A stretch of DNA of 55,630 nucleotides from Woeseiaceae bacterium (GTDB lineage Bacteria; Pseudomonadota; Gammaproteobacteria; Steroidobacterales; Woeseiaceae), in assembly GCA_030066735.1 (NCBI GenBank), contig JASJBB010000064.1, positions 1 to 55,630 of the forward strand, read 5' to 3'. Made by a program: the position numbers and the translations under genes. The notes below the pieces were generated by a model. The model was not told the DNA's origin, ran no database searches, and was given only the letters and a program-made list of their open reading frames with translations. Shown piece by piece: positions 1-48,987 of the stretch; position 1 is the first letter of the stretch, and every line of letters starts with the position of its first letter.

Positions 1-3000
1 ATGTCCGATGCTCCGGCCGCGCCGGCAGCATTGTTGCCGCCCAGCGCTACGCTGCCTGCACCGACCGGACGGCTGTAGACCTGGTAGGTCGTCTGGCTGG
101 TCGTAAGCTGCAGCCCGGTGGCTGCAAATGCCGAGGTCGCAGGATCCAGCCAGGTCGGCAACGCCGTGGCATCGGCGTCATAGGCGACATAAAGCGTCGC
201 ACTGCGATCGAGGTCGAAGGTCAGGAATGACGAGGAGCTGTTACCCGCATCGCCGTGCGCAGTCATGATCCAGACGGCGTTCTCGAGCGTCGCGGGCACG
301 CCCGTCAAACTGGCTGACGAGTCCACGAAATATTCGTCGCCGGCTTCGAGCAGGTTCTGCTTGTAGTTGGGTTGTGACAGGAAGTCTGCAACGAACGGAC
401 TGATCGTCGTTCCCGTCGCATCCCCCAGCAACACGTTGTACCAGAGCTGCGCGATGATGGCGTGCCCGAGCGCGTTGGGATGCAGGTCGTCGGCATACAG
501 ATCCGTGCGAATCCGGTCGGCGGTCCCGTCGCTGTCATCGTCCGGCGCCAGGAACGTCCAGATGTCCGCGCCGGCCAGCGTGCCGGTGAGATCGTTGGTA
601 ATTCGGCCGTTGTACTGATCGATGCGCTGGTTGCGGGTCGACGACAATCCGTCCGTTGCGTCGAGTATCGGCGGCAGCGTTGCGACGCGCACGTCCATGC
701 CTGCTGTGCCGAGCCGGTCCACGATCGACTGCATGTCACTCTCGAAGGCGGCCGCAGACCGAAGCGAATTGGCGTCGTTGGTGCCGAGTTGCACGAGAGC
801 GATCGATGCCTCGTCGTGACGGTCGATGATGGACTGCAACCGGGTCACATCGGTGTCGTTACTCGTATCACCGCCGATACCCTCATTAAACGTAACGACC
901 TCGGTCGGCGGCAGGTCCTCGAGCAGCCTGGCGAGCGTCGACGCGAAAGCGGTGTTCGAGAACACGCGACTCGCATCGTCGTTGTCCGCCGCGAACGTGT
1001 CGCCGATGCCGTTCGGGTTGCTGTCGCCGATCGCGAGAACGTAATCGCCACCGACGGCGATGTCGACGCTGTGCGTGGCAACCGGGTTCGAGCCCGCATC
1101 CAGCAGGCGCACCGTGACGGTCTTCAACCCGTCGGGCACGGATGTGAACGAGCCGGTCCACGGCGGCGCGTTGCGCGTAATCGGCGACGCGCCAGTCAGC
1201 GAGAACTCGACAGCGCCTCCGGCCGGCAGCGCCCGCACGACGGCGCCGACGTCAACCGTGCCACCGGGTACGACATCCAGCGGAATCGGCCCCGTCAGCT
1301 TCACGTCGGGCGCCGTGCCGATCGGGTCGATCACCACGTTGTCGAAGCGCGCCGGCGATTGTGTGAACAGACCCACCGAGCCCGAGGCGTGTGCGCTATC
1401 GGTCGCCGCGAGCACCAATGCCCCGTCTTTGCTCACGCGGATATCCGGCCCCTCGACCTCGACGCTGACCGTAAACGGCGCCGCGGGATTGTCGCCCACG
1501 GCATTCACCGCCAACGTGGAGAAAACGCCGCCGGCGCGCTTCTCGAGCCGGCTGAACCCGTAGCGCGTGTTCATCGTGAAGCGATAGTAGTCGTCCGGAT
1601 TCCTGTAGCGGAACACGACGCCGAGACTCTCCGCGCGGCCATTGCCGAAGCGCTCGACGTCAACCGAGAACCGATAGTCGGTCAGGGTCGCGCCCGCCTG
1701 CAGCCAGGCGAACGAGCCGAGATGGAAGCTCTCTTCGAAACTGGCCGTCGACTCGATCGGATTCGACTGCACGAGCTTGCCGCTGCCGGCATTCCAAGCG
1801 GCCGCCGACGGGGTCTCGTTGACCACGGACCAGCCGTTACTGTCGCCGTCGTCAAAATCGTCCGCAAACGGCAGCCCCAGGCCGGCCGATCCGCCGGCCA
1901 GCGTGGCCGCCTGGATCGTGATGTTCGACCCGGTCTCCTTCACATAGCGGAACGTCAGGGTTTGACCGGGCAACGCCGCCTGGTAGTTCACGGTCACGGT
2001 ACGGTCGAACGGATTCGCGAGGTCCTGCACGGTCGTAACGAACGGCGGCACGGTGCCGTCGCTCAGGCTCACCTCGATCCGGCCACGCGCCTGGTAGCCA
2101 CCGAGGTGGACCTGCAGGGTTCTCGGCGTCGTGTCCGCGGCAACCGTGAACTGTACCGCCGGTCCCGGCCCCGAGAAATACAGGCCGGCCTTCGTGCTCG
2201 TGGCGCCTGTCGGCGTGCCATCCGACCAGCTGTATTCTGCTCGCGAATTGCCGCCAGCGAAGCGACGCCCGGCCGGCCCCGAAAAGTCCGAGATCTGTTC
2301 CGTGACGCCCGACTTGCGGTTGACCGACGACGCTGAACTCAGGCCCCAGTGGATCCAGTCGGCGCTGCCGTCGGCTGTCAGGTCGATACTCGGCGCAGCG
2401 CTGCCGACCGCGGCGGACAGCGCCCCGCTGTCGCCCGTTACGGTCAGCGTCACGTCGACCTGGTCCTCGACATAGCCCGAGGCCGTCGCCGTAATCGTGC
2501 CCGTGTACTGCCCTGCGCTCAGGCCGGTGGGGTTGGCCGTGACGGTTATGGAACCCGCCGGTGTCGTGCCGGAAGTCGGGTTGACCGTCAGCCATGAGGG
2601 CGCCGATGTGCCCAGGCTGAACGGCGCCGCCGAGCTGTCCGAGGCAGACAGTGAGACCGTCTGTTGTAGCGGCGCCGTGTCGCCTTCGTCGGCGCTGAAG
2701 CTCAGCGTTGCCGCGCTGAATTCCAGCGCGGGCGGTGGCGGGGCGACGTCGCCCACCAGCGTGGCCGCTTGCAGCGTGACGTTCTGCCCGGTCAGCTTCG
2801 TGTAGCGGAACGTGAGCGTGTGGCCCGGCGCGGCGGCCTGGAAGCTGATGGTCACGGTGCGATCAAACGCCGTCGACAGATCCTCGACGGTGGTCACGTA
2901 CGCCGGGGTGCCATCGCTCAGGGTTGCCTCTATTTGCCCCCGCGCCTGCCAGCCGCCGAGGTGTACCTGCAGCTGCTTCGTGCTGGTATCGGCAGGGACC

Positions 3001-6000
3001 GTGAACTCGAAACCGGCGGTGCCGCCCTGGAAGTACAGCCCCGCCCGGGTATTTGCCGATGGCGTCGGTGCGCCGTCGGTCCAGCTGTAGAGCGCCCGAT
3101 CTCTGCCACCGTCGAATCGCCGGCCTGCGGCGCCCAGCGTCGTGATGTTGCTGATCTGCGTCGTGACGCCGGCCTTGCGATTAACCGATGACGCGGAAGT
3201 CCGGCCCCAGTGCGCCCAGTCGGCCGGGCCGTCAGCCGTCAGGTTGACGCTGCCCGGTGTCGTGCTGACAGCTCCCGACAGCACCCCGGTGTCGCCGACG
3301 ACGTTGAGCGTGACGTCGATCTCGTCCGTGTTGTAGCCCGAGGCCGTCGCGGTGATCTTGCCCGCGTACTGGCCCGCACCCAGGCCGGTCGGGTCCGCAA
3401 TAATCGTGATTGTGCCTTCCGGCGTCGTGCCCGACGCCGGATTGACGGTCAGCCACGCCGGCGTCGAGGAGGTGAGGCTGAACGCGGCCGCCGAACTGTC
3501 CGACGTGTTCAGCGACACGACCTGCTGCTGCGCCGCGGTGTCTCCCTCGTCCGCCGTGTAGGTCAGCTGGGCAGCGCTGAACTCCAGCGACGGCTGCGGC
3601 GGCGCCACCTCGCCGGCCAGCGTAGCCGCCTGCAGCGTGATGTTGGATCCGGTTTCCTTGATGTAGCGAACCGTCAGTGTCTGTCCCGGCGACGCGGCCT
3701 GGTAATCGACGGTCAGCGTGCGATCGAATGCCGTCGACAGATCCTGGACGGTCGTCACGAAGGGCGCCGTCCCGTCGCTCAGGGTCACTTCGATCCGGCC
3801 GCGGGCCTGCCAGCCGCCGAGGTGTACCTGCAGTTGCTTCGCGCTGGTATCGGCGGGCACCGTCAGCTGGAAACCATTGTTGGGGCCCGTGAAATAGAGC
3901 CCTGCCCCGGTCGTTGACGATCCGACCGGCGCGCCGTCGGTCCAGCTATACGTCGCCCGGGCGCTGTCGCCACCGAACCGGCGCGGCGCGGCGCCGAGCG
4001 GCGACATGGCGCCGATCAGGTTGGTCACGCCCGACTTGCGGTTCACCGAGGACGCCGTGCTCAATGCCCAATGCGCCCAGTCCGCCGTGCCGTCCGCGGT
4101 CAGGTCAACGCTTGACGGTGTCGCGCCGACCGAGGCCGACAACACGCCGGTCTCCCCGGTCACGTTGAGCGTTACGTCGATCTCGTCCTCGGTATAGCCG
4201 GATGCGGTCGCGGTGATGGTGCCCGTGTACTGGCCCGCCGCGAGTCCCGTGGGATCCGCGGTTATCGTCACGGCGCCTGCCGGCGTTGTGCCCGATGCCG
4301 GATCGACGCTCAGCCACGCCGGCGCAGAGGACGCCAGACTGAACGCAGCGCCCGAACCGTCCGAGGCCGACAACGATACGGTTCGCTGCTGCGCCGTCGT
4401 ATCGCCTTCGTCGGCGCTGTAGTTCAAGGACGAGGTGCTGAACTGCAGCGCCGGAGGCGGCGGCGCCACGTCGCCCACCAGCGTGGCCGCCTGCAGCGTG
4501 ATATTGGCGCCCGCCAGCAACGTGTAGCGCACCGTCAGCGTCTGGCCCGGCGATGCCGCCTGAAAGTCGACGGTCAGCGTTCGATCAAACGCCGTCGACA
4601 GGTCTTCGACGGTCGTCACGAACGGAGCGTCACCATCGCTCAGGCTCACCTCGATCTGGCCGCGGGCCTGCCAGCCGCCCAGGTGCACCTGGAGCCGCTT
4701 CGCCGTCGTATCGGCCGGGACCGTTAACACGATGCCGTTGCCTGTACCCTGGAAGTACAGGCCGGCCGTCGTGCTGGCCGAGCCGGTTGGCGTACCGTCG
4801 GTCCAGTTATAGGCCGTTCGCGAGCTCCCGCCCACGAAACGGCGGCCCGCCGCTCCGAGCGTCGTGATATTACTGATCTGCGTTGTGACGCCCGCTTTGC
4901 GGTTGACCGACGATTCCGAGCTGCGCGCCCAGTGCGCCCAGTCCGCACTGCCGTCCGCCGTCAGGTCTACGCCGGGCGCAGTTGTGCTGACCGACGCCGA
5001 CACGACTCCGGCGTCGCCGGTAATCGTCATCGTGACGTCGATCGTGGCCTGGACGAAGCCTGATGCGCTTGCCGTAATCGTTCCCGAGTACTGGCCGGCA
5101 GCCATGCCGCTCGGGTCGGCCGTCACCTGCAACGAATTCTCGGGCGTCGTTCCCGTCGTGGGGGTCGCCGACAGCCACAGTGGTTCCGACGACGCAACGC
5201 TGAACGCGGCCGGCGAACCGTCGGAAGCCGACAACGTGACGGCCTGCTGCATCGGCGTCGTGTCGCCCTCATCGGCGGAGTGAATCATCGTCGACGTGCT
5301 GAACTGCAGGGCTGGCCCGAGGCTTCCCTGCCGGCTCTCGACGAGCCCCTGTCCCTGGGGCTCGAACTGCGCGCTGGTCGTCAGCAGGATCTTGTCGATG
5401 ATGATGCCGTCCTCGCGCATCCAGACATCGAACGCGTGCTCGCCCGCCGAACCGATGTCCACGTAGGCGCGTTCGCCGCTTCCCATCAGCGTCGAACTCC
5501 AGCTCCAGTTGCTCTCGAAGTTGCTGACACGAAAACCGTTCGGCGACGCGGCGCCGTTCAGGCCGACGTGCAGCGAGTCGTTGCTACCGTTAGACGCCTT
5601 GGCCCGGACCCAGACGTAGTGGCGCCCGGGCGCGCTGACGTTGATCCGGTACTCGAGGTGCGGGCTCGTACTAACGTAGTCGTCATTGATGTTGGCGCCG
5701 CTGTTCGGCTGGGCCCGCAACGCCTCGCCCGCAGAGTTGTGCGATTCGGTGACCGCGTCCCAGTTGTGGCCCGCGCGTGCCTGCCGGGCATGAAAGTGCT
5801 CGGCTTCCATGGCGATGATGTTGCCGAATCCGGGGTTCTGCACGAACGGGTCACCGCCTGGCGTGACCTGGCCGAGCGATCGCTGGTTCGCGTTGATGTC
5901 GTCGACGATCTGCTGGCCGAGCGCCGTGAGCGAACTGACGACGCTGCCATTGCTCGACTTGACGTCGGAACTCTCGAGCGGATCGGCGCCGAGATCGAAA

Positions 6001-7307
6001 AGCGCAACAGCGCTGACCGTGGAACCGCTCGTGTTGACCAGCAGCTTCCAGTCGCCGTCGCGCACGGCGCCGAGCCGCGCCTGGGAGAACGGCGCCTCGT
6101 TGAATCCGAAGATCGCGGGGCGCGACAGGCTCGTCACGTCGCCGTTCAGGAGCGGCCACAGATCGAGGCCGTCGACCGCGTACCCGCCGGGTATCGTGGC
6201 GCCGAAGAGCCCCGCGAGCGTGGGCAGGATGTCGATCGCCGACACGGGCTCCGTGACCACCGAACCCGCGTCGAGCTGTCCCGGCCAGCGCATTAAAGCC
6301 GGTACCCGGATGCCGCCTTCGAGCTGCGTCTCCTTGCCGCCGGTAAACGGCATGCCCGAACCGCCATCGATACCGTACTCCAGCCACGGGCCGTTGTCGG
6401 ACGTGAAGATAACCAGGGTATTGTCGTCGATGCCGAGTTCGGACAGCTTGTCGAGCACGCGCCCGACATGAAAATCGATTTCCTCGACCGTATCGCCGTA
6501 CAGGTCGCGCGCCGAACTGCCCACGAAGTTCACCGACGGGTGCAACGGCACGTGCGGCGCCGTCAGCGGCAGGTAAACGAAGAACCTGGCGCTCGCATGC
6601 TGCTCGATAAACGCGATGGCGCGGTCGGTGAACCCGCTCGTGAACGTCGACTGGTCCGAGTTGAATTCAACAATGGTGTCGCCGTCGTACAGCGGCAGAT
6701 TGGGAAAGCCCTCGCCAGGCGGAAAAGTGCTGCCCTGTCCGGCATAGCCGGTCAACTCCGCGCGATCCCGCGCCGCCGTCAGGCGCGGATCCTCGCCTGC
6801 TGTCACCGGCATCAGCGGATGAAACGGCCACATGTCGTTCGAATGCGGAATGCCGAAAAACTCGTCGAAGCCGTGGCGCATGGGGCGGAATTGATAATGA
6901 TCCCCAAGATGCCACTTGCCGAAGACGCCCGTCTCGTAGCCGGCGGACTGCGCAAGCTCCGCCAGTGTGATCTCGTCGTCATGAATCCCGACGGTCGAGC
7001 TGGGCGTGAAGTTCCGGCTCATGCCGGTGCGCGGCGCGTACGAACCGGTCAGCAGCATGACGCGCGAAATGCTGCAACTCGGAGCGACGTGATAATTCGA
7101 AAACGCGGCGCCCTCGCTCGCGAGCCGGTCGATGTTCGGTGTCAGGATATCCGTGGCGCCGTAGGCCCCCACGTCGCCGTAGCCCAGGTCGTCCGCAAGA
7201 ATAACGATAACGTTGGGTTGCGGCGCCTGCGCCGCTGCGGCGCCCAGACCGAACAGGCCGACCAGGACCAGGCAGCCTCTGAACAGCGCTCTTGCCGACT
7301 GCATCAT
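1..7307 (-). CDS. giant secreted sulfatase / SGNH-esterase multidomain protein (3' end outside window)
   Basis: Open on the minus strand from ATG at 7307 to base 1, so about 2435 residues are visible and the C-terminus is missing. Order seen: signal peptide ending near AAAAQA (1-28); sulfatase domain (about 30-470) with LADDLGYGD, a C-S-I-S-R-V-M-L-L-T-G formylglycine-type motif (Cys78), GKWHLG and TSDNGP; a CBM6-like domain (about 490-643); four tandem ~286-residue repeats (about 660-1805); a laminin-G/concanavalin-like domain starting FADDFDDGDSNGW (about 1810-1995); an Ig-like domain; an SGNH hydrolase domain (about 2087-2300) with GDSN, GTND and DLHPN; then a further beta-rich domain. Family knowledge suggests extracellular removal of sulfate and acyl groups from a polysaccharide; the substrate is unknown. 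A second ATG at 7304 is possible. Confidence 0.88.
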   Translation of the reverse strand, partial: MMQSARALFRGCLVLVGLFGLGAAAAQAPQPNVIVILADDLGYGDVGAYGATDILTPNIDRLASEGAAFSNYHVAPSCSISRVMLLTGSYAPRTGMSRNFTPSSTVGIHDDEITLAELAQSAGYETGVFGKWHLGDHYQFRPMRHGFDEFFGIPHSNDMWPFHPLMPVTAGEDPRLTAARDRAELTGYAGQGSTFPPGEGFPNLPLYDGDTIVEFNSDQSTFTSGFTDRAIAFIEQHASARFFVYLPLTAPHVPLHPSVNFVGSSARDLYGDTVEEIDFHVGRVLDKLSELGIDDNTLVIFTSDNGPWLEYGIDGGSGMPFTGGKETQLEGGIRVPALMRWPGQLDAGSVVTEPVSAIDILPTLAGLFGATIPGGYAVDGLDLWPLLNGDVTSLSRPAIFGFNEAPFSQARLGAVRDGDWKLLVNTSGSTVSAVALFDLGADPLESSDVKSSNGSVVSSLTALGQQIVDDINANQRSLGQVTPGGDPFVQNPGFGNIIAMEAEHFHARQARAGHNWDAVTESHNSAGEALRAQPNSGANINDDYVSTSPHLEYRINVSAPGRHYVWVRAKASNGSNDSLHVGLNGAASPNGFRVSNFESNWSWSSTLMGSGERAYVDIGSAGEHAFDVWMREDGIIIDKILLTTSAQFEPQGQGLVESRQGSLGPALQFSTSTMIHSADEGDTTPMQQAVTLSASDGSPAAFSVASSEPLWLSATPTTGTTPENSLQVTADPSGMAAGQYSGTITASASGFVQATIDVTMTITGDAGVVSASVSTTAPGVDLTADGSADWAHWARSSESSVNRKAGVTTQISNITTLGAAGRRFVGGSSRTAYNWTDGTPTGSASTTAGLYFQGTGNGIVLTVPADTTAKRLQVHLGGWQARGQIEVSLSDGDAPFVTTVEDLSTAFDRTLTVDFQAASPGQTLTVRYTLLAGANITLQAATLVGDVAPPPPALQFSTSSLNYSADEGDTTAQQRTVSLSASDGSGAAFSLASSAPAWLSVDPASGTTPAGAVTITADPTGLAAGQYTGTITATASGYTEDEIDVTLNVTGETGVLSASVGATPSSVDLTADGTADWAHWALSTASSVNRKSGVTNLIGAMSPLGAAPRRFGGDSARATYSWTDGAPVGSSTTGAGLYFTGPNNGFQLTVPADTSAKQLQVHLGGWQARGRIEVTLSDGTAPFVTTVQDLSTAFDRTLTVDYQAASPGQTLTVRYIKETGSNITLQAATLAGEVAPPQPSLEFSAAQLTYTADEGDTAAQQQVVSLNTSDSSAAAFSLTSSTPAWLTVNPASGTTPEGTITIIADPTGLGAGQYAGKITATASGYNTDEIDVTLNVVGDTGVLSGAVSTTPGSVNLTADGPADWAHWGRTSASSVNRKAGVTTQISNITTLGAAGRRFDGGRDRALYSWTDGAPTPSANTRAGLYFQGGTAGFEFTVPADTSTKQLQVHLGGWQARGQIEATLSDGTPAYVTTVEDLSTAFDRTVTISFQAAAPGHTLTFRYTKLTGQNVTLQAATLVGDVAPPPPALEFSAATLSFSADEGDTAPLQQTVSLSASDSSAAPFSLGTSAPSWLTVNPTSGTTPAGSITVTANPTGLSAGQYTGTITATASGYVEDQVDVTLTVTGDSGALSAAVGSAAPSIDLTADGSADWIHWGLSSASSVNRKSGVTEQISDFSGPAGRRFAGGNSRAEYSWSDGTPTGATSTKAGLYFSGPGPAVQFTVAADTTPRTLQVHLGGYQARGRIEVSLSDGTVPPFVTTVQDLANPFDRTVTVNYQAALPGQTLTFRYVKETGSNITIQAATLAGGSAGLGLPFADDFDDGDSNGWSVVNETPSAAAWNAGSGKLVQSNPIESTASFEESFHLGSFAWLQAGATLTDYRFSVDVERFGNGRAESLGVVFRYRNPDDYYRFTMNTRYGFSRLEKRAGGVFSTLAVNAVGDNPAAPFTVSVEVEGPDIRVSKDGALVLAATDSAHASGSVGLFTQSPARFDNVVIDPIGTAPDVKLTGPIPLDVVPGGTVDVGAVVRALPAGGAVEFSLTGASPITRNAPPWTGSFTSVPDGLKTVTVRLLDAGSNPVATHSVDIAVGGDYVLAIGDSNPNGIGDTFAADNDDASRVFSNTAFASTLARLLEDLPPTEVVTFNEGIGGDTSNDTDVTRLQSIIDRHDEASIALVQLGTNDANSLRSAAAFESDMQSIVDRLGTAGMDVRVATLPPILDATDGLSSTRNQRIDQYNGRITNDLTGTLAGADIWTFLAPDDDSDGTADRIRTDLYADDLHPNALGHAIIAQLWYNVLLGDATGTTISPFVADFLSQPNYKQNLLEAGDEYFVDSSASLTGVPATLENAVWIMTAHGDAGNSSSSFLTFDLDRSATLYVAYDADATALPTWLDPATSAFAATGLQLTTSQTTYQVYSRPVGAGSVALGGNNAAGAAGASD
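1892..5325 (-). repeat. four tandem ~860-bp in-frame repeats inside the sulfatase/SGNH gene
   Basis: Four consecutive units with boundaries near 5325, 4469, 3609, 2751 and 1892 keep a period of about 860 bp (about 286 residues). Each unit has a BACON/Ig-like half (…SADEGDT…, …GTTP…, …AGQY…GTITA…ASGY) followed by a second beta-rich half with the recurring words DLTADG, DWAHWG, SVNRK, GVT, LQVHLGGWQARG, DLS, FDRT and LQAATL. DNA identity between units is high: for example CAGCCGCCGAGGTGTACCTG occurs unchanged near both 2955 and 3815. The second half is a domain I cannot name. In-frame expansion or contraction by recombination is plausible. Confidence 0.85.
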
Positions 7308-8212: not shown

Positions 8213-8249
8213 CTGACCTTGCAGGGTTGCTGCGGGTATACTCCGCAGC
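8213..8249 (+). promoter_or_regulatory. sigma70-type promoter with a palindrome over the -10 box
   Basis: CTGACC (8213-8218), 18-nt spacer and TATACT (8237-8242) form a reasonable promoter for the gene starting at 8279. A perfect inverted repeat, GCTGCGG (8229-8235) and CCGCAGC (8243-8249), brackets the -10 hexamer exactly. This geometry suggests a repressor operator occluding the promoter. A hairpin at the transcript start is the alternative. Confidence 0.55.
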
Positions 8250-8278
8250 TATCGCTGGCAACGCGGGTCAATACGCCA

Positions 8279-8605
8279 ATGGGCCTGTTCTTCTGGAAAA
8301 ACAACCGCAAGATCGACAACTTTGCGCAGGCTGTTGCCGACGATCTGTTCAGCTATGTTCAGCCCGACGTCGCCCATCAGCATGTTCTCGGGCGTGGCGA
8401 TGTGTCGCGGAAGAAGAAAGCCAAGATCGACCAGAAATTTACGGACATCCGGCTGCAGATCAAGCGCTTCAGCGAAACCAACTCGCTCGGCGTCTACGGC
8501 AAGGCGCGGCTGATGAAACAGTTCAACGACCGGCTCGAAGAACTCGGATACGACGTCGAGATCGTCAACAAGATCACCGAGAACTTCCTGATCAGTAACG
8601 CGTAG
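8279..8605 (+). CDS. small hypothetical protein
   Basis: 108 residues, starting MGLFFWKNNRKID. It is highly charged and predicted helical, with no signal peptide or membrane segment and no motif I recognise. The ATG at 8279 lies about 30 nt after the predicted transcript start; there is no strong Shine-Dalgarno. It ends 9 nt before the TPR-sulfotransferase gene, so the two are probably co-transcribed. Function unknown; the pairing suggests a role alongside the sulfotransferase, but this is only inference. Confidence 0.75.
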   Translation: MGLFFWKNNRKIDNFAQAVADDLFSYVQPDVAHQHVLGRGDVSRKKKAKIDQKFTDIRLQIKRFSETNSLGVYGKARLMKQFNDRLEELGYDVEIVNKITENFLISNA

Positions 8606-8614
8606 CGCGACACG

Positions 8615-10366
8615 ATGAACGAAGCCGAGACGAAGAAACTCATCGAACAGGTCCAGGAAGCCGCGAAACTCCTGCGCGGCGGCAACCGCAGCGAAGCGCT
8701 GCTCATTTACCACGAGGTCAAGGAGCTCAGCGAGCGTTGTCCGCCCGTCGAACTGCAGCTCGGCCATCTGTGCGAAGAATTCGGCGATATCGACGAGGCG
8801 ATCGTGCACTACGAGATCGTCGTGGAGGAGGTGCCCGACAGCGCACAGCTTCTCAGCGTGCTGGGCAGGGCCTATCTCCATGCTCACGAACTCGACAAGG
8901 CGCTCGAGGTGCTCGAGCAGGCGGTGGAGCTCGACCCCGATATCGTCGAGGCGCAGCACGGACTCGGCGCCTACTACATGCGCAGGCTGGATTACGAGAA
9001 CGCCATTGGTCCGCTCGAGCATGCGTGCAAGCTGCGGCCGCGAGACGTCGGCGTGCGCATTAACCTGGCCTCGACACTGGAGAAACTCAACCGCCACGAC
9101 GAAGCGCTCAGCAACATCAACCGCGCCCTGCAACTCGACAAGAAGAACCCCAACGCGCACCTCGTCATGGTGGAAATCCTGTCCCGCACCGGCGACATGG
9201 ACGGGGCGCAAAAACAGGTGGAAAAACTGGTCAAGCTGCAACCCCAGTTTGGTGCCGCCTACGACCAGCTGGCCCGCATCCGCAAATTTACCGACGCCGA
9301 CCTGCCGCTGATCCGGCAGGCCGAGAAGGCGCTGCAGCATGGCATGCCGCCGAAGGAGCGCTGCAACCTGCTCTTTGCCATCGGCAAGATGTACGACGAC
9401 TGCGGCAAGTACGAGGAAGCCTTCGCGAGCTACGAGCAGGCCAACCTGTTGCGCAAGCACCGTTACGACATCAACAGCGACCGCGATCTCGTCAAGGCCC
9501 TGCATCGAGCCTTTACGGCGAAGAACATCTCGATCCTTGCGGCGAACGGCAACCCGTCCGCGAAACCCGTGTTTATCGTGGGCATGCCGCGGTCGGGCAC
9601 GACGCTGATGGAGCGGATCATCGCCAGCCACCCGCTGGGTGGCGGCGCGGGCGAACTTCCACAGATGGTAAGCGCCGGCCACAAGATGTTCCCGAAGGGC
9701 GAGCGGCGTAAATCACTGAAGCAACTGCAGGACGACCTCAACAAGGAGAAGATCGAGAAATTCACCGAGGACTTCCTGCGCGTCCTGGAACAGGCCAAGG
9801 GCGACGCAACCCGCATCGTCGACAAGATGCCTGGCAACGCGCGCTTTCTTGGCCTGATTCACGTGCTGTTTCCCAACGCGACCGTCATTCACGCGATGCG
9901 TCATCCGCTCGATAGCTGCCTGTCCTGTTACTTCCAGAACTTTGCGGAGCTGTGGTGGAGTAACGATCTGCAGGTCATTGGCAAGGAATACACGCTGTAC
10001 CGCAAATCGATGGAGTACTGGCAGAGCGTCCTGCCCGAGGGCACGATCATCGATGTCCAGTACGAAAGTCTCGTCGAAGACCCCGAGACGCACGCGCGTC
10101 GCATGCTCGATGCCATCGGGCTCGAGTGGGACCCTGCGGTGCTGGAGTTCTATCGCAAGAAAGGCGTCGTCCGCACCGCGAGTGTCGCCCAGACGCGGCA
10201 AAAGATTTACAAGAGTTCACGCGCGCGCTGGATGAATTACGCCGAGCACCTCGGCCCACTCGTCGACGAGATCGCACCTTACCTGGAAGATGACCGCGAA
10301 CGACTCGCCGAGCACGGCATAGAATTGCCGTCGGGCCCCGGCTGGCTCAAACGGCTGGTCGGCTAG
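8615..10366 (+). CDS. TPR-repeat sulfotransferase
   Basis: 583 residues. The N-terminal ~200 residues form about five tetratricopeptide repeats (helix pairs with A/G-x-Y and AL.. patterns). The C-terminal half is a PAPS-dependent sulfotransferase domain: the 5'-phosphosulfate-binding loop VGMPRSGTTL lies near residue 325, and the 3'-phosphate-binding segment HAMRHPLDSCLSCYFQ near residue 430. The fold is the Sulfotransfer_3 type. No signal peptide, so cytoplasmic or membrane-peripheral. TPRs usually bind protein, so a protein or glycan-on-carrier acceptor is possible; the substrate cannot be read. Its stop overlaps the stop of the convergent gene at 10363. Confidence 0.88.
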   Translation: MNEAETKKLIEQVQEAAKLLRGGNRSEALLIYHEVKELSERCPPVELQLGHLCEEFGDIDEAIVHYEIVVEEVPDSAQLLSVLGRAYLHAHELDKALEVLEQAVELDPDIVEAQHGLGAYYMRRLDYENAIGPLEHACKLRPRDVGVRINLASTLEKLNRHDEALSNINRALQLDKKNPNAHLVMVEILSRTGDMDGAQKQVEKLVKLQPQFGAAYDQLARIRKFTDADLPLIRQAEKALQHGMPPKERCNLLFAIGKMYDDCGKYEEAFASYEQANLLRKHRYDINSDRDLVKALHRAFTAKNISILAANGNPSAKPVFIVGMPRSGTTLMERIIASHPLGGGAGELPQMVSAGHKMFPKGERRKSLKQLQDDLNKEKIEKFTEDFLRVLEQAKGDATRIVDKMPGNARFLGLIHVLFPNATVIHAMRHPLDSCLSCYFQNFAELWWSNDLQVIGKEYTLYRKSMEYWQSVLPEGTIIDVQYESLVEDPETHARRMLDAIGLEWDPAVLEFYRKKGVVRTASVAQTRQKIYKSSRARWMNYAEHLGPLVDEIAPYLEDDRERLAEHGIELPSGPGWLKRLVG

Positions 10367-12259: not shown

Positions 12260-12715
12260 ATGGACCGCTACGACCGGCATATTCTCGAAGCGCTGCAGCA
12301 GGACGGCCGCATCAGCAACAAGCAACTGGCCGAGCAGGTCAACCTGTCCGAATCTGCCTGTCTGCGGCGCGTTCGGGCCCTGGAAGACGGCGGCACCATC
12401 CAGCGTTACGTGGCGATGCTCAGCCAGGACAAGGTCGGCGTTTCGGGCGACGTGCTCGTGCATATCGGCCTGCACCGCGAGGAGCAGAGTGAACTCGCGG
12501 CCTTCGAGGAGGCCGTGCGGCAAATTCCTGAAGTCATGGAGTGTTATCTTATGACCGGAGAATTTGATTACTTGCTGCGGGTGGTTGTGGCCGACATGGC
12601 TGACTTCGAGCGAATCCACAAAGAAGAACTCACGCGCCTGCCAGGCGTGGCGCGAGTCAACTCGAGCGTCGCCATACGCAAAGTCCTGAAACGCACGGCC
12701 CTGCCCCTGCGATGA
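12260..12715 (+). CDS. Lrp/AsnC-family transcriptional regulator
   Basis: 151 residues. The N-terminal winged helix-turn-helix (about 1-60) contains DGRISNKQLAEQVNLS and the recognition segment CLRRVRALEDGG; the C-terminal RAM/effector domain covers about 65-145. Lrp family members sense amino acids. It diverges from ald, so it is probably an alanine-responsive regulator like AldR. Its stop overlaps the egtB start (ATGA, 12712-12715), which couples the regulator to ergothioneine synthesis. The promoter presumably lies in the 143-bp region upstream. Confidence 0.92.
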   Translation: MDRYDRHILEALQQDGRISNKQLAEQVNLSESACLRRVRALEDGGTIQRYVAMLSQDKVGVSGDVLVHIGLHREEQSELAAFEEAVRQIPEVMECYLMTGEFDYLLRVVVADMADFERIHKEELTRLPGVARVNSSVAIRKVLKRTALPLR

Positions 12716-13935
12716 CGCTCACCGGACAGTTTCTCGACGCGCGCAGCGTCATGCCGCGTCTGTGCGAGCACCTCGCACCGGAGGACACCGTCGTGCAGTC
12801 GATGCCCGATGTCAGCCCGTCCAAGTGGCACCTCGCGCACGTAACCTGGTTTTTCGAACAGTTCATCCTGCGCGAGTACGATGCCGATTACCGGCCCATC
12901 GACGATCGCTACCACTACCTGTTCAATTCCTACTATTACTCGGCGGGCGAGATGCACGCGCGGCCGCGCCGCGGCTTGCTGTCCCGCCCTACGCTCGCCG
13001 AGATCCTCGCATACCGCGCGCACGTCGACGGGGCCATGCAGCAACTTCTCGAGACGTCGGGTGACAACGCAGACGTGGCTTTTCGGACCGTGCTGGGCAT
13101 GCATCACGAGCAGCAGCACCAGGAACTGTTCCTGACCGACATCAAGCACGTGCTGTCCTGCAATCCGCTGCAGCCGGCCTACGACGCGGGTCTGAAGCAA
13201 CTTGAGCCGGGCACTGTGCCTGCCATGGATTTTGCGCCCGGCCCCCACGGTGTCCACCCTGTCGGAGCAGAGGGCGGCGGGTTCTTTTTCGACAATGAAA
13301 CGCCGCGTCACGACACCCTGCTGCTGCCGCACAGCATGGCCAACCGGCTCGTCACCAATGGCGAGTATCGCGAGTTCATCGACGCCGGTGGTTACGGCAA
13401 AGCGGACTACTGGCTGTCCGACGGCTGGGCGGCCGTGAACGAACAGGGCTGGAAACGTCCGCTGTACTGGAGCGAGGGGCTGGACAGCGAGTTCACCCTC
13501 GGCGGTCCGCGCGACATCGACCCCGGCGCGCCGGTCACCCACGTGTCGTACTATGAAGCCGACGCCTTCGCCCGCTGGGCCGGGGCGCGGCTACCCACCG
13601 AGTTCGAGTGGGAGCTGGCGGCCGAGTCGGCCCGTCCGGACGGCAATTTCATGGAGTCGGGCTATCTCCATCCCCGGCGCTCCGATTCGGACCAGATGTT
13701 TGGCGACGTTTGGGAGTGGACGTCGTCGTCCTATGCGCCCTACCCCCGCTTCGAGCCGCTCGCGGGTTCGCTGGGCGAATACAATGGCAAGTTCATGTGC
13801 AACCAGATGACGGTCCGCGGCGGCTCCTGTGCAACGTCGCAGAGCCACATCCGCAAGAGCTATCGGAGCTTTTTCTACCCGAATGCCCGCTGGCAGTTTC
13901 TCGGCTTCCGGCTCGCGAAGGACCTGCGGCCATGA
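12712..13935 (+). CDS. egtB: ergothioneine biosynthesis sulfoxide synthase EgtB
   Basis: 407 residues. EgtB is a non-haem iron enzyme that oxidatively joins a thiol (cysteine or gamma-glutamylcysteine) to hercynine. The N-terminal DinB-like domain supplies iron ligands: SKWHLAHVTWFFEQF (about 38-52) and HHEQQHQE (about 130-137). The C-terminal FGE-sulfatase-like domain (about 180-405) has TNGEYREFID, RLPTEFEWELAA, GDVWEWTSS and RGGSCATS. It overlaps the upstream regulator and the downstream egtD by 4 nt each. No egtA, egtC or egtE is seen in the window, so the sulfur donor is unresolved. Confidence 0.93.
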   Translation: MTLTGQFLDARSVMPRLCEHLAPEDTVVQSMPDVSPSKWHLAHVTWFFEQFILREYDADYRPIDDRYHYLFNSYYYSAGEMHARPRRGLLSRPTLAEILAYRAHVDGAMQQLLETSGDNADVAFRTVLGMHHEQQHQELFLTDIKHVLSCNPLQPAYDAGLKQLEPGTVPAMDFAPGPHGVHPVGAEGGGFFFDNETPRHDTLLLPHSMANRLVTNGEYREFIDAGGYGKADYWLSDGWAAVNEQGWKRPLYWSEGLDSEFTLGGPRDIDPGAPVTHVSYYEADAFARWAGARLPTEFEWELAAESARPDGNFMESGYLHPRRSDSDQMFGDVWEWTSSSYAPYPRFEPLAGSLGEYNGKFMCNQMTVRGGSCATSQSHIRKSYRSFFYPNARWQFLGFRLAKDLRP

Positions 13936-41972: not shown

Positions 41973-43277
41973 ATGGCCGCAGTAAAGCGCCGCTACGTAG
42001 CGGTCATCATTGCCCTAATTCTTATCGTCGGGATTCCCGGATACCTGTCGATGTACACGTCGCCAGATCCCGATTACTCGGAACCGCAAACTGCTGCCGA
42101 GGGGGCCGGGGAACGAACTACTGAAGGCTTGCGGGCAGATGCGCCGCCTGCTCCTGTGTTCCCCGACCTGCGCCGACCGGCCGCACCACAACCGGCCGCT
42201 GCGTCGCCAGTTGCGTCGGTTACGGCATCAGACGCGCCAGACTACGAGGAGCCTGAATCCGACCCGGGCGCGTCGGCGTACGTCAGCAGTTGCCAGCCTG
42301 CGGCCGGCGTGTCGCCGAACCCGAATGCCGAGGGCCGCAGAGCTCGCCTGAAAATCGCTTTGGCTGCACCGGAAACTGCCTACATCGTCCAACGGCTGCG
42401 TGAAGCTGAGAATCTCGTGCTGACGCAGACGGCAGGTCGCATCAGTTTGAAGTTCTATCCCGGCGGCATCATGGGATCCGATGCCGACGTAATAAAGAAG
42501 ATGCAGGTCCGCGTGTTGCAGGGCGCCTTGCTCTCCCCGGCCAGCCTGCAGGAAGCCGTGCCGGCGCTGGGCATTTACCGCCTGCCAATGCTGTTCCGTT
42601 CGAAGGACGAAGTGGCACACCTGCGCGAGATAACCGACCCGGTGCTTTACGACGCTTTGCTTGAAGCTGGCTATGTCGCCTTCTGCTTCGCGGGCAATGG
42701 TTTCACGCGCTTCTTCTCGAAGCTGCCGGTACGTTCGGAGGTAGACCTGCGCGTCAGCAAAGTCTGGGTTAGCGAAGGAGATCGGATCGCCGAACGGTTC
42801 TTGCGCTTACTCGAAGTCAGTCCCGCATCGATACCGCTTGTCGACCTCTTGGTCGCGCTCCAGACCGGGCTGCTCGAAGTTGTTACGGTACCGCCGCTGA
42901 GCGCATGGGTATTCCAGTGGTATACCCAGGTCGACTACATGACCGACCTGCCGTTGACATACGACTACAGCGTGCTGGTTATCGACGCAGAAGCTTTTGA
43001 GTGGATCGCACCAGCGGACCAACGGATCATAGCGGCGGCCCTGAATGGCGTACTTCACGATTTCGACAGCGCCAGCTTTTCAGACTCCTCCAAGGCTATT
43101 GAGGCCATCGCCCGTAAAGGCATACACGTTGTGCCCGCCAACCCGGGGTTCCGCTCCCAACTCGAGGGCCTCATGCGTGAGCAGACAATGGCGATGATCG
43201 GCGACGGCATCCTGCCGAAAGACCTCACGCTGCAGGCTTTACAGATTCTCGCCGACTATCGCGCCGCGGCGCCCTAG
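41973..43277 (+). CDS. orphan TRAP-type solute-binding protein (DctP family), membrane-anchored
   Basis: 434 residues. An N-terminal hydrophobic segment (about 8-25) is followed by a Pro/Ala/Glu-rich linker (about 30-115) and a DctP-type domain: LKIALAAPETA, LKFYPGGIMGSDADVIKKMQ, GALLSPASLQEAVPALGIYRLPMLFRS, and a late signature around WVFQWYTQVDYMTDLPLTYD. No DctQ or DctM membrane subunits lie nearby. GGAGC precedes ATG 41973. The long linker after an uncleaved-looking anchor is unusual for this family. Confidence 0.85.
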   Translation: MAAVKRRYVAVIIALILIVGIPGYLSMYTSPDPDYSEPQTAAEGAGERTTEGLRADAPPAPVFPDLRRPAAPQPAAASPVASVTASDAPDYEEPESDPGASAYVSSCQPAAGVSPNPNAEGRRARLKIALAAPETAYIVQRLREAENLVLTQTAGRISLKFYPGGIMGSDADVIKKMQVRVLQGALLSPASLQEAVPALGIYRLPMLFRSKDEVAHLREITDPVLYDALLEAGYVAFCFAGNGFTRFFSKLPVRSEVDLRVSKVWVSEGDRIAERFLRLLEVSPASIPLVDLLVALQTGLLEVVTVPPLSAWVFQWYTQVDYMTDLPLTYDYSVLVIDAEAFEWIAPADQRIIAAALNGVLHDFDSASFSDSSKAIEAIARKGIHVVPANPGFRSQLEGLMREQTMAMIGDGILPKDLTLQALQILADYRAAAP

Positions 43278-45381: not shown

Positions 45382-45794
45382 GCCCCGATGACCTGCCGCG
45401 CCCACTGCACCACGCTGCGAACCCGCGGCGCGGTCATGTCGTATGCCTCGTCGAAGCTCACCCAGCGCCATTCGTGGTGTTCGGGCTCCCCGGTTTCGGG
45501 GGACGGCCCCATGACCACGGTCGCCTGGCTCGTCCGTGCCAGGTAGTAGCGCGCCGTCTTGCCGCGGCTGTAGGGGCCGGTCTCCATGAAGCGGTCGCCC
45601 CAGTCGAATTCGAGTTCCTCGATGCTCGTCTCTTCGCCGACTTCGCGGATAGCCGCTTCCTTCGGCTGTTCGCCGTCTTCCTGCAACCCCTTGGGAAAAT
45701 CCCAGTGGTGATAGGCGCGCAGCAACAGGGTCACCCAACCGTCGTCGGTCTGACGAGCCAGCACCACGCCGCAGGAGAGAAAGGGTTCGTTCAT
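45378..45794 (-). CDS. Nudix hydrolase, diadenosine-tetraphosphatase-like
   Basis: 138 residues from ATG 45794 (MNEPFLSCGVVL). Complete Nudix box GLQEDGEQPKEAAIREVGEET (Gly-x5-Glu-x7-Arg-Glu-Val-x-Glu-Glu, about 36-56), preceded by HHWDFPKG, a feature of Ap4A hydrolase-type Nudix enzymes. The start shares one base with the stop of the ABC permease gene, so they are coupled. The nucleotide substrate is inferred, not proven. Confidence 0.88.
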   Translation of the reverse strand: MNEPFLSCGVVLARQTDDGWVTLLLRAYHHWDFPKGLQEDGEQPKEAAIREVGEETSIEELEFDWGDRFMETGPYSRGKTARYYLARTSQATVVMGPSPETGEPEHHEWRWVSFDEAYDMTAPRVRSVVQWARQVIGA

Positions 45795-48283
45795 CAGGCC
45801 GCTCGCAGTACGTCGACCGGGGCCGCGTTGACGGCGCTGCGCGCCGCTACGTAGCCGCTCACACACACGACGAGCACGCCGGCGCCAACGCCGGCAACCC
45901 AGAGCCACGGATTGAACTCGTAAGGCAATTCAAACAGGCGCGTCGCGACAATGGCGGCAAGCGCGGACGCTCCTGCCGACGCGAGCACGCCGGCCGCCGC
46001 TCCCAGCGCCGCAAACTCGGCCATGACGCCGGCAAACACGATCCGCTTGCGCGCGCCGAGTGCGCGCAGCATCGCGCTCTCGAATCTTCGCTCGTCGATC
46101 GTTGACTGCACGGCCGCAAACAGTACGGCAATGCCGGCCGCCAGCGTGAAGACGAACACGGCCTGCACGGCGAGGCTGGCCTTCTGCACGATGCCGCGCA
46201 CCTGCTGCAGGATCGCGTCGAGATCGATCACCGAGATACTCGGGTGAGCACGCACGAGGTCGACGAGCACCGGCCGCTCTTCCGGCGTCAGCCGCAGGCT
46301 GGAGATATAGGTGGTCGGCATGCCGTCCAGCGCGCCCGGCGAGAACACCATGAAGAAGTTCGGCTGGAACGAGTCCCAGTTGATCTTGCGGATGCTCGCG
46401 ATGGTGGCCTCAACTTCCCTGCCCGCCACGTTGAACACCAGCTTGTCGCCGAGCGCCAGGCCGGTCTCGACGGCGGCCTCCTCCTCGACCGAGATCAGCG
46501 GCGGGCCGTCGTAGTCTGCAGGCCACCACTCGCCCTCGAGAATTTCATTGCTCGACGAGAGCGTTGCTGCGAACGACAGGTTGGCCTCACGATTGGCCAT
46601 CCAGCGGCCGCCCGGGTCCGGGTACTCGCGATCCTTGACCGAAACGTCGTTGATCGTGGACATGCGCGCGCGCACCAGCGGCACGAATTCGGGCGGCTCG
46701 ATACCGGCGGACCGGTAGATCCCGGCGACCGAGTCGCGCTCCTGCGGCTGGATATTGATCATGAAATGATTGGGCGCGTTCTCATCGAGCGTCTGGCGCC
46801 AGCCGTCGAGCAGGTCCGTTCGCACGATCGTCAGCAGCAACAGCACGGTGAGCCCGAGGCCGAACGCCACGACCTGGACGGCACTGTCGCGGCCGCGGCG
46901 AGCGACGTTTGCCAGCCCGTAGCGCCACGCAACGCCGACACCGGAGCGGAATCGGCCCATCATCGCTACAAGGCCACGACCGACGAAATACAGCGCCGCA
47001 GCGATCACGATGATGCCGCCGAGAAGGATGACCAGCATCTGCGCATCGCCGACGGAGCGGTACAGCAACGCGGCGACGGCCGCCAGCGACAGGCCGGCCA
47101 CGAGGATGCGCGACGGCGCGGGCGGCATCGCGTCATGTCGCAACACGCGCAGCGGCGGTGTATTGCGCAGCTGTATCAGGGACGGCAACGCAAATCCGAC
47201 TAGCAGCACCAGCGCGCTGCCGCTCGCCAGCACAACGGGCATCGGCCCGACCGGCGGCAGGTCACTTGCGATCAGGTCCGCGAGCACTGTCGTCAGTATC
47301 TGCTCCGCGGTGAAGCCGATCACGCTGCCGATAGCCACGCCCAGGATGCCCAGCAGGACGAGCTGCACGATCGATACCGCGATCACGAAACCCTGGGTGG
47401 CGCCGAGGCTCTTCATCAGCGCGACCGTGTCCATGCGGCGGTGGGCGAAGCGGCGTGCCGACATCGCGACCGCCACCGCGCTCAGCAACAGGGCGATGAT
47501 TGCGGTCAGCGACAGGAAGCGCTGCGCACGATCGGCCGCCCGGTAGGCGCGCTCGCTGCTTTCCTCGCGATTCGACGAGCGCACGGCATCGGGCAGCTCG
47601 GGCTGTATCGCGGCGTCGAACTCGTTGACGGCCTGCTCGTCGCCGGCCACCAGCAGCGCGTAGCCGACGCGGCTGCCCTCCGAGATCAGGCCGGAAGCCG
47701 GAATGTCGTCGATGTTCATCAACAGCGAGGGCGCGAGCGACGCGAACCCCATGCTTTGGTCCGGCCGGTAGGTCAGGACGGCCGTCACCTCGAGCTCCAG
47801 CGCTCCCACTGACAGCCGGTCGCCGATATCCGCATCGACGCGCGCCAGCAAAGCCCCGTCCGCCCAGACTTCGCCCCGCGCGGGCGTGTCATCGACGGTG
47901 CGCTGCTCACCGAACAGGACGTCGGCGACACGCACCGCGCCGCGCAGCGGGTAGGTGCTGCTGACGGCCTTGATCGTAGCCAGCGCGCTCAGGTCGCCTG
48001 CAAACACGACGCTCGGGAATGTCGTCGTCTCCGCCGTCGCCAGGTCGAAACCCTCCGCCATCTCGCTCCAGGTTGCCGGGATCGGCTCCTGCGATCGCAA
48101 ACGAAGATCCGCGGCCAGTACCTCGTTGGCCTGCCGGGCGACGGCTTTGCCGATGCGGTCGGTCAGAAAACCGACCGCCGTCAGTGCGGCGACGGCCAGC
48201 GCAACGGCGGCCAACAGCACGAGCACCTCGCCCGAGCGAATCTCGCGGCCAAAACTGCGCAATGCGAAGCGCAGCGCCTTCAT
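45794..48283 (-). CDS. ybbP: ABC transporter permease YbbP-like (FtsX/MacB fold)
   Basis: 829 residues. An N-terminal transmembrane helix, a large periplasmic region, an FtsX-type three-helix block (about 255-365), a second periplasmic region, and a C-terminal FtsX block (about 705-825) match the ten-helix YbbP layout. Together with YbbA it forms a MacB-type exporter or mechanotransmission complex; substrate unknown. It overlaps ybbA by 4 nt upstream and the Nudix gene by 1 nt downstream. Confidence 0.92.
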   Translation of the reverse strand: MKALRFALRSFGREIRSGEVLVLLAAVALAVAALTAVGFLTDRIGKAVARQANEVLAADLRLRSQEPIPATWSEMAEGFDLATAETTTFPSVVFAGDLSALATIKAVSSTYPLRGAVRVADVLFGEQRTVDDTPARGEVWADGALLARVDADIGDRLSVGALELEVTAVLTYRPDQSMGFASLAPSLLMNIDDIPASGLISEGSRVGYALLVAGDEQAVNEFDAAIQPELPDAVRSSNREESSERAYRAADRAQRFLSLTAIIALLLSAVAVAMSARRFAHRRMDTVALMKSLGATQGFVIAVSIVQLVLLGILGVAIGSVIGFTAEQILTTVLADLIASDLPPVGPMPVVLASGSALVLLVGFALPSLIQLRNTPPLRVLRHDAMPPAPSRILVAGLSLAAVAALLYRSVGDAQMLVILLGGIIVIAAALYFVGRGLVAMMGRFRSGVGVAWRYGLANVARRGRDSAVQVVAFGLGLTVLLLLTIVRTDLLDGWRQTLDENAPNHFMINIQPQERDSVAGIYRSAGIEPPEFVPLVRARMSTINDVSVKDREYPDPGGRWMANREANLSFAATLSSSNEILEGEWWPADYDGPPLISVEEEAAVETGLALGDKLVFNVAGREVEATIASIRKINWDSFQPNFFMVFSPGALDGMPTTYISSLRLTPEERPVLVDLVRAHPSISVIDLDAILQQVRGIVQKASLAVQAVFVFTLAAGIAVLFAAVQSTIDERRFESAMLRALGARKRIVFAGVMAEFAALGAAAGVLASAGASALAAIVATRLFELPYEFNPWLWVAGVGAGVLVVCVSGYVAARSAVNAAPVDVLRAA

Positions 48284-48987
48284 GCCGCGGACTTCGTGTC
48301 GCTCACCAGCTTGCCGACGTCCAGGCTCAGCACCCGGTCGCAGCGCTCGGCGAGCGACAGGTCGTGAGTCACCAGCACGAGCGTGGTCGAGCTGCTGCGA
48401 TTCAGGTCGAACATCAGCTCCATGATCTTGGCGCCGGTGCGACTGTCGAGATTGCCGGTCGGCTCGTCGGCGAACAGCACGGCCGGTTCCGTGGCGAAAG
48501 CCCGCGCGATCGCGACGCGCTGCTTTTCACCACCCGAGAGCTGCGCGGGATAATGGCTCCAGCGATCACTGAGCCCGACCTTGTCGATGATGTTCCGCGA
48601 CGCGGTGCGCGCGTCTTCTCCACCGGCAAGTTCGAGAGGCAGCATCACGTTCTCGAGCGCGTTGAGCGACGGCACGAGGTGAAACGACTGGAACACGAAG
48701 CCCACGCTCTCGGCGCGGACGATGGCGCGGCCGTCTTCGTCGAGGTTGGAGAGGTTCGAGCCGTTGAGGACGACGTGACCCCGGGTGGGCAGATCCAGGC
48801 CCGCGAGCAATGCCAGCAGCGTGGACTTGCCGGCGCCGGACGGTCCGACGATCGCGACGCTTGCGCCTGCCCGGACCTCGAAACTCACGTTGTCGAGAAT
48901 GGTCAGAGTACCCTCCGGGCTGCTAACCTCCTTGCTGATGCCGTGTGCCGCCAGAACGGCGGCGTTGGCCGTTGATTGATTGTCCAT
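48280..48987 (-). CDS. ybbA: ABC transporter ATP-binding protein YbbA
   Basis: 235 residues from ATG 48987 ([16 protein letters not shown]). Walker [10 protein letters not shown] (about 48-56), Q-loop [21 protein letters not shown] (position about 100-120), signature [16 protein letters not shown], Walker [13 protein letters not shown] and H-loop THD. A LolD/MacB-type ATPase partner of the YbbP permease. Its start codon overlaps the divergent tesA start codon. Longer upstream reading is antisense to tesA and rejected. Confidence 0.94.

Follow-up and report, generated by a model that had tools for sequence, protein, structure and literature searches.

Can a sulfatase and an SGNH esterase that lie near the two ends of one very long polypeptide be regarded as a working unit, or does their joint presence merely reflect the shuffling of repeat-rich genes? 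The question is raised by a gene at the edge of contig JASJBB010000064.1 of a Woeseiaceae bacterium (GenBank assembly GCA_030066735.1). The stretch of DNA analysed here, referred to as the window, is this contig from position 1 to 55630 (55,630 nucleotides), and its source (G000) is a metagenome-assembled genome (MAG) totalling 3,339,645 bases, split into 173 contigs and 85% complete. An earlier note, made from the letters of the window alone, described a secreted protein in which the two enzymes are joined through sugar-binding-type domains, and proposed that this constitutes a distinct strategy for stripping a decorated polysaccharide. The answer reached here is a graded one: the fusion is genuine, the gene is a mosaic in which one sulfatase lineage has been joined to two distant SGNH tails, and the product is, on a judgement that tips only slightly towards it, a secreted two-headed enzyme that would remove sulfate and acyl groups from one sulfated, acylated glycan.

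One reading frame with two catalytic domains

The fused gene occupies positions 3..7307 of the minus strand and comprises 2435 codons with no stop; the window spans the contig from its first base, so the 3' end of the gene is cut there, with about eight codons and the stop missing. The full-length relatives P0002-P0005 extend 8 residues further, ending ...MYLVGLLP (GAAD/GASD-MYLVGLLP). Within this single uninterrupted frame Pfam recognizes both a sulfatase (PF00884, 200 bits against a cut-off of 25) and an SGNH hydrolase (PF13472, 65.7 bits against a cut-off of 32.9), as had been claimed. A frameshift or assembly join at 1000-1900, which the earlier note had named as a possible flaw, is excluded by a second MAG (G085, assigned to the same genus as the source genome), in which a colinear frame has 87% identity to the window protein over residues 6-2435. 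This copy is counted once, since P0002 is the protein of locus L005, and L005 and locus L162 are the same G085 contig. Three more clusters, at 75-80% identity, carry both domains in the same order; the architecture is identical in P0002-P0004, and P0005 has one repeat fewer. An assembly chimera of the window gene is ruled out by the L005/L162 copy, by P0003-P0005 and by the neighbours kept in L162, whose identities to those in the window are 86% (sulfotransferase), 95% (alanine dehydrogenase) and 83% (EgtB-like). Third codon positions of the gene have a GC content of 0.837 overall, with a range of 0.79-0.86 across full 200-codon steps.

In the whole-length protein search the best 120 of 151 matches were listed, and domain maps cover 46 different proteins. 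Seven of these 46, from more than one assembly, hold both catalytic domains within one open frame (the window, P0002-P0005, P0007 and P0010), which disposes of the suspicion that relatives always encode the two enzymes as separate genes.

Both catalytic sites are complete, and each is under strong purifying selection. The sulfatase residues D39, D40, C78, R82, K131, H133, H252, D304, N305 and K325 align with GALNS (4fdi), the closest sequence match in the PDB, and with sulfatase 6bia; we take these positions to be the metal and sulfate ligands, and the A that 4fdi reads at the position of the cysteine is presumably the modified residue. The SGNH domain has all of its blocks, GDS (S2096), GIGGD, N2177 and D2273/H2276, and among the 17 aligned SGNH rows, the window included, Ser is present in 15, Asn in 15, Asp in 14 and His in 17; its matches in the PDB are weak (best 1yzf, E 5e-9). 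When the gene is compared with the 87% identical copy in L162, the ratio of nonsynonymous to synonymous substitution rates (dN/dS) is lowest of all domains in the sulfatase (0.055) and the SGNH domain (0.062), with 0.071-0.076 in the GH115_C and CBM66-like modules, 0.113-0.144 in the repeats, 0.140 in the C-terminal module and 0.161 in the Ig domain. Of the two cysteines in the protein, C12 belongs to the signal peptide, and C78 is the only one in a mature part of about 2400 residues; at the rate found in seven other proteins of the window (33 cysteines in 3509 residues), about 23 would be expected. The equivalent of C78 is the only cysteine beyond the leader in the window protein and in P0002-P0005 (P0002-P0004 have one cysteine each, and P0005 two more, in the leader), and P0007 and P0010 have six additional cysteines in the Ig-SGNH part. 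Both ends of the fused protein are probably active. Two paralogous SGNH-tail proteins of genome G125 (L129 and L134) have GDG for GDS and lack the Asn, and are probably non-catalytic.

The features of the fused protein, in order from the N-terminus, are the following.

7224..7307 (-): Sec-type signal peptide, residues 1-28 (by eye; the sole stretch above the hydropathy threshold)
5892..7217 (-): S1-type sulfatase, residues 31-472 (Pfam, own profile and structure-entry alignment)
7062..7076 (-): formylglycine site CSISR, C78-R82, with Ile instead of Pro at +2 (motif)
5358..5819 (-): GH115_C carbohydrate-binding-type module, residues 497-650 (Pfam and profile)
5037..5318 (-): BACON 1, residues 664-757, with the mosaic breakpoint at about 757 (profile and identity to P0007)
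4479..5015 (-): unnamed module copy 1, residues 765-943 (profile)
4176..4454 (-): BACON 2, residues 952-1044 (profile)
3615..4154 (-): unnamed module copy 2, residues 1052-1231 (profile)
3315..3593 (-): BACON 3, residues 1239-1331 (profile)
2757..3293 (-): unnamed module copy 3, residues 1339-1517 (profile)
2454..2732 (-): BACON 4, residues 1526-1618 (profile)
1896..2432 (-): unnamed module copy 4, residues 1626-1804 (profile)
1341..1862 (-): LamG/CBM66-like module, residues 1816-1989 (profile and levanase match)
1071..1313 (-): Ig/FnIII-like domain, residues 1999-2079 (profile)
429..1049 (-): SGNH hydrolase, residues 2087-2293 (Pfam, profile and active-site blocks)
3..365 (-): C-terminal module, residues 2315-2435 (profile and distant 6hpd match)

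The Pfam matches above cut-off are Sulfatase at residues 31-370 (E 6.9e-59), SGSH_C at 329-452, GH115_C at 496-644, BACON_2 in four stretches and Lipase_GDSL_2 at 2092-2284 (E 9.9e-18), and our own profiles were built by iteration from the window across the 234 proteins fetched (sulfatase 25-472, the four BACON-plus-module units 664-1804, C-terminal module 2315-2433). These results revise the earlier description of the region between the enzymes. The part that had been called CBM6-like is actually GH115_C. The laminin-G-like part holds as a CBM66/LamG-like module that matches the levanase entries 4b1l/4azz (E 3e-5), in a domain that we take to be CBM66; the Pfam family 3keto-disac_hyd scores there just below its cut-off. 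The four large repeats are indeed four, each being composed of a BACON domain and a module of about 180 residues for which Pfam and NCBIfam have no model. The C-terminal module matches, distantly, residues 869-972 of the GH2 enzyme 6hpd (E 8e-5), presumably an enzyme of ulvan origin. The signal peptide agrees with the claim of secretion; no hydrophobic anchor was found beyond it in a hydropathy analysis of the whole protein, and no sorting signal was seen by eye.

The unnamed module has 14 invariant columns in 30 copies, with an invariant D, W, H and W near its start. Only 1 of the 30 members matched each of two Pfam families (best E 0.023), and none of the 30 matched NCBIfam. Comparison by hhalign gave no kinship to GH115_C, BACON, LamG, Ig or the C-terminal module, and PDB profile matches to designed Pizza proteins were rejected as noise (E 3.6e-4 for the whole sequence, with 0 significant stretches). 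The module occurs in 5 of the 369 genomes of a class sample, its own genome included; all four of the others carry a module sulfatase and three of them an SGNH tail, and since these four fall in two genera they provide little independent evidence.

A mosaic history and separately encoded relatives

The identity between the window protein and P0007, measured per 50 residues, is 0.62-0.88 up to residue 750 and falls to 0.16-0.26 over residues 751-950; at 951-1000, where BACON 2 begins, it is 36%, in a bin that is low against P0005 too because the alignment was cut at residue 1000. The break between the two proteins is at the end of BACON 1. Downstream of it P0007 has GH115_C-BACON repeats and the window has unnamed modules, and window residues 1054-2435 match P0008, an SGNH-only protein, at 58%.

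The histories of the two halves were compared using trees of 20 sulfatase rows and 32 SGNH rows, picked by domain map from the 234 fetched proteins plus loci; P0208 and L154 (same contig), L005 and L162 (both equal to P0002) and the long multi-sulfatase proteins were excluded, the constrained groups were named after quick trees, and the root was not inferred. In the sulfatase tree P0007 groups with the window clade (support 100/99). In the SGNH tree it groups with P0234, P0233 and P0010 (100/100), and the window clade groups with L163, P0008, P0009, P0011 and P0229 (100/100). When the SGNH data are constrained to the sulfatase grouping, 529 log units are lost and the constraint is rejected (p-AU 3.6e-55); a constraint that unites all fused rows on the same data loses 623 log units (p-AU 3.2e-7), and one that unites P0007 with P0010 on the sulfatase data loses 69 log units and is likewise rejected (p-AU 2.5e-4), the placement of P0010 in the sulfatase tree being weak (60/26). 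The two halves of the gene have conflicting histories, and the single GH115_C that remains in the window clade is the leftover to be expected from a tail replacement. P0007, which carries much of this argument, is one metagenome cluster with 4 member sequences and a 7112-base contig.

Among the 107 family genomes, 84 have matches at 1e-20, and among the matches listed these are almost always generic sulfatases. Partial copies lie at contig edges in G064 (C-terminal part, 68%) and G005 (N-terminal part, 66%), and P0006 ends early, on a 4861-base contig. The SGNH tail occurs in 15 of the 369 genomes of the class sample, the source genome of the window included; with P0010 as the query, only this source genome matched among the 398 of a phylum sample at E 1e-90. 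Module-bearing sulfatases without SGNH are represented by P0012 (Thiocapsa rosea), P0015, P0016, P0196, P0197, P0204, P0207 and P0208 and by loci in G275, G128, G207 and G423, some of which may be truncated where their contigs end. Proteins that have the SGNH tail but no sulfatase are represented by P0008, P0009, P0011, P0014 (Thiocapsa rosea), P0017-P0024 and P0229-P0234 and by loci in G275, G128 and G207, the module being undetected in the SGNH proteins of G128. In G275, G128 and G207 the module sulfatase and the SGNH tail are separate genes within one genome. P0234 bears the P0007-type GH115_C-BACON-SGNH tail on a glucose/sorbosone dehydrogenase (GSDH) head and has no sulfatase.

Sulfatase maturation, joint function and competing explanations

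In the mechanism that we propose, the protein would be exported by the Sec pathway and Cys78 then converted to formylglycine, the N-terminal sulfatase would hydrolyse sulfate esters, and the C-terminal SGNH domain, which would sit in a recurring CBM66-like/Ig/SGNH/C-terminal cassette, would remove O-acyl (probably acetyl) groups, with the GH115_C, BACON, unnamed and CBM66-like modules serving to bind and to space, so as to place both heads on one glycan. The gene, rich in repeats, would have originated when a module-BACON-SGNH tail became joined to a sulfatase-GH115_C-BACON head. What the two heads catalyse, that they share a substrate and gain from proximity, which way the exchange went and how the protein is secreted are all points that we infer from sequence. 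A functional pairing of the two enzymes is suggested because the sulfatase lineage keeps an SGNH partner though the lineage of that partner differs. One GspD above cut-off in the source genome indicates that a type II route exists there; that the fused protein is exported by it is a guess. A stronger version of this mechanism, in which selection kept the pair while one partner was replaced, both kinds of group are stripped in one encounter, and maturation proceeds by neither FGE nor anSME, appears improbable.

Several observations weigh against a two-headed enzyme acting on one glycan. The fusion is rare, being present at full length in 2 of the 107 family genomes (its own and G085) among the matches listed, and in G275, G128 and G207, where sulfatase and SGNH tail are encoded separately, the two genes are on different contigs. 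P0007 may be an assembly chimera, being a single metagenome cluster, and the tail swap may reflect loose recombination instead of selection. The unnamed module, which L007 and L008 also carry, is present in proteins with M23 peptidase domains too and hence need not bind a foreign glycan. No carbohydrate-active enzyme (CAZyme) or SusCD-type gene was found among 20 scanned open reading frames (ORFs) of the window, in a scan that was not exhaustive and with SusCD not searched genome-wide, and among these ORFs there is nothing by which the gene would belong to a polysaccharide-utilisation locus. Finally, PF03781 and TIGR03942 gave no known maturase in the source MAG, at its 85% completeness.

The question of maturation can be examined further. 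In the source genome PF03781 finds an FGE-like domain in a large protein (L089) and a DinB/FGE protein. A true FGE requires a C-x4-C pair, and L089, PEGA-like by eye, has no cysteines in its FGE tail and was rejected. The FGE-sulfatase match at 12712-13935, a candidate for a maturase near the fused gene, was also set aside, as it carries DinB_2 and adjoins a Methyltransf_33 gene, two genes that we take to be an EgtB/EgtD pair. By PF03781 no FGE with the expected cysteine pair was found in G000, G085, G064, G005, G105 and G093 (L089, L169-L173), by a cysteine-tail pattern that did not catch the tails of EgtB-like proteins, and TIGR03942 gave nothing above cut-off in G000, G105, G093, G072, G085 and G064. 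G105, a single contig at 100% completeness, and G093 show the same FGE-like picture as the source genome, and in G072 there is one more FGE-like protein, whose two cysteines are not at the expected place. The sulfatases checked in G000, G105 and G093 (L084-L088, L200-L203) are of the Cys type. G275, G128, G207 and G423 encode FGE-like proteins whose tail has the C-x4-C pair. An FGE-like ORF of 361 aa lies directly before an SGNH-tail ORF, on the same strand and 31 bases apart, at L155:14253-15335 (-) in G275 and L157:6200-7282 (+) in G128; its tail has no C-x4-C pair, and it was rejected as a true FGE. Benjdia et al. (2007, as cited in PMC6315715) reportedly proposed a third sulfatase maturation system in E. 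coli, and a third formylglycine route in Woeseiaceae-type genomes is possible.

Alternatively, the sulfatase might never be activated and the SGNH head alone would work. This explanation, which we regard as very doubtful, draws on the absence of a Cys-pair FGE and of an anSME-type match in the MAG and on the formylglycine site, which reads CSISR in place of C-x-P-x-R, with Cys and Arg retained and Pro replaced by Ile; the +2 residue is Ile or Leu throughout the window clade (P0001-P0007). The oddity of this site was downgraded after 322 motifs had been counted (P0121-P0228 and 12 further proteins, the window clade included), in which +2 is P in 229, A in 60, V in 20, I in 7, L in 3 and T, G and S in 1 each. 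Residues other than Pro, chiefly the common Ala and Val, thus occur in 93 of the 322, which speaks against an inactive sulfatase; Ile and Leu themselves are uncommon outside the window clade, which accounts for six of the seven Ile and one of the three Leu, the others being Ile in P0203 and Leu in P0015 and P0016. Such inactivity is also at odds with a dN/dS that is lowest of all domains in the sulfatase, with the retention of C78 as the only cysteine, and with the complete relative G105, which has other Cys-type sulfatases and no maturase that was found.

The two heads might instead both be active and independent of each other. If similar BACON and module repeats recombine often, heads and tails would be shuffled and the enzymes could act on different substrates with no gain from their pairing; the break does fall in a repeat, many SGNH-tail proteins have no sulfatase, and the P0007-type tail is found on a GSDH head in P0234. 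We consider such incidental pairing unlikely, though worth serious attention, given that an SGNH partner accompanies the sulfatase lineage whichever of the two tail types is present, and that both heads remain constrained in the fused gene. A different substrate is envisaged if the protein belongs to the cell envelope, its modules binding the cell's own wall or capsule and its heads editing sulfate and acyl groups on surface polymers of the cell itself or of its neighbours. The occurrence of the unnamed module with M23 peptidase domains would fit this, as would the lack of CAZyme neighbours among the 20 scanned ORFs and a sulfotransferase gene 1.3 kb away that is conserved beside the fused gene in L162. 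An envelope role is nevertheless decidedly unlikely, as the protein has neither a hydrophobic anchor past its signal peptide nor a visible sorting signal, and its GH115_C, levanase-like and 6hpd-like modules point to proteins of glycan degradation.

Precedent and genomic surroundings

The claim of a distinct strategy survives only in part: the single polypeptide stands, with a functional pairing that we consider plausible, and multi-domain sulfatase-esterase proteins and a two-step sulfatase-GH78 protein have already been published. Related sulfatase-esterase fusions are known, and it is the tail cassette of its own, the repeat module without a model and the exchange of partners that set this one apart. 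As far as the accessible portions of the papers cited here go, Planctomycetes are described as having multi-domain sulfatases that also bear esterase/lipase and laminin G domains (Kim et al. 2016, PMC4807772). The fusion of a sulfatase to other domains is shared with these Porphyra-associated proteins, for which gene fusion was proposed as the origin; they differ in belonging to another phylum, and the portion of that paper in question mentions neither such repeats nor an SGNH tail. Fusions of sulfatases with glycoside hydrolases are described in PMC6388578. P36 of Formosa agariphila, an S1_25 sulfatase with GH78, likewise has two catalytic domains on one polypeptide, which were analysed separately and act in consecutive steps on one sulfated polysaccharide; it differs in that the partner is a rhamnosidase, not an esterase, and the substrate is known (ulvan) (PMC8511951). 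Fused acetyl-feruloyl esterases of Bacteroidetes also place two decoration-removing enzymes on one multimodular chain, but they are two esterases acting on xylan, with no sulfatase (PMC7110780). Pelagic Woeseiaceae MAGs have more sulfatase genes (PMC12175321), and the terms SGNH and carbohydrate esterase have 0 occurrences in the main text of that paper, as accessible. A short literature search at title and abstract level, largely without subscription papers, gave no precedent for a sulfatase-SGNH fusion.

Within our own data a sulfatase and Lipase_GDSL_2 are also found in one polypeptide in P0191 and P0203 (scanned) and in P0205 and P0209 (precomputed Pfam only). In the P0191/P0203 type, however, the GDSL_2 match is N-terminal and lacks the first 20 or so profile positions, there are three (P0191) or two (P0203) sulfatases, about 40% identical to that of the window, and DUF7133 and HEAT lie between; by its order this is an independent combination. 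P0145 has three sulfatases and a BD-FAE (alpha/beta-hydrolase) domain. In Thiocapsa rosea the same unnamed module recurs, P0012 is kin to the sulfatase and P0014 is an SGNH protein with the same kind of tail, but these are two separate proteins, both assigned a 5,890,510-base contig. Between three and six tandem sulfatase motifs per protein occur in P0121, P0123-P0126, P0145 and others, some with an esterase-type domain.

If the two-headed reading is true, a single molecule would couple the removal of sulfate and of acyl groups, usually pictured as separate steps, and the swapped tails would amount to a natural experiment on selection for this coupling. The reading would further suggest that glycans carrying both sulfate and acyl groups occur in the niche of the Woeseiaceae, define a new repeat module, and offer, in a protein with a single cysteine, a clean test for sulfatase maturation in Woeseiaceae-type bacteria.

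The source genome has five PF00884 genes. The scanned ORFs of the window include a TPR-sulfotransferase, an alanine dehydrogenase, the DinB/FGE-domain protein with its Methyltransf_33 gene, an HhH-GPD/NUDIX protein, AsmA, DUF4097, a sigma factor, a PAS/GGDEF/EAL protein, a zinc dehydrogenase, Glycos_transf_3, anthranilate synthase, PEP carboxylase and an HD protein, together with a DctP-type binding protein (41973-43277) and an FtsX permease with an ABC ATPase (45794-49389), the last two groups being at least 34 kb from the fused gene; 3 of the 20 had no family at the thresholds used. An antisense ORF at 8249-9682 (-), 477 aa with no Pfam match, was dismissed as spurious, as it overlaps the conserved sulfotransferase gene. 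The latter, at 8615-10366, is kept beside the fused gene in L162, where the sulfotransferase, alanine dehydrogenase and DinB/FGE genes have the same arrangement as in the window.

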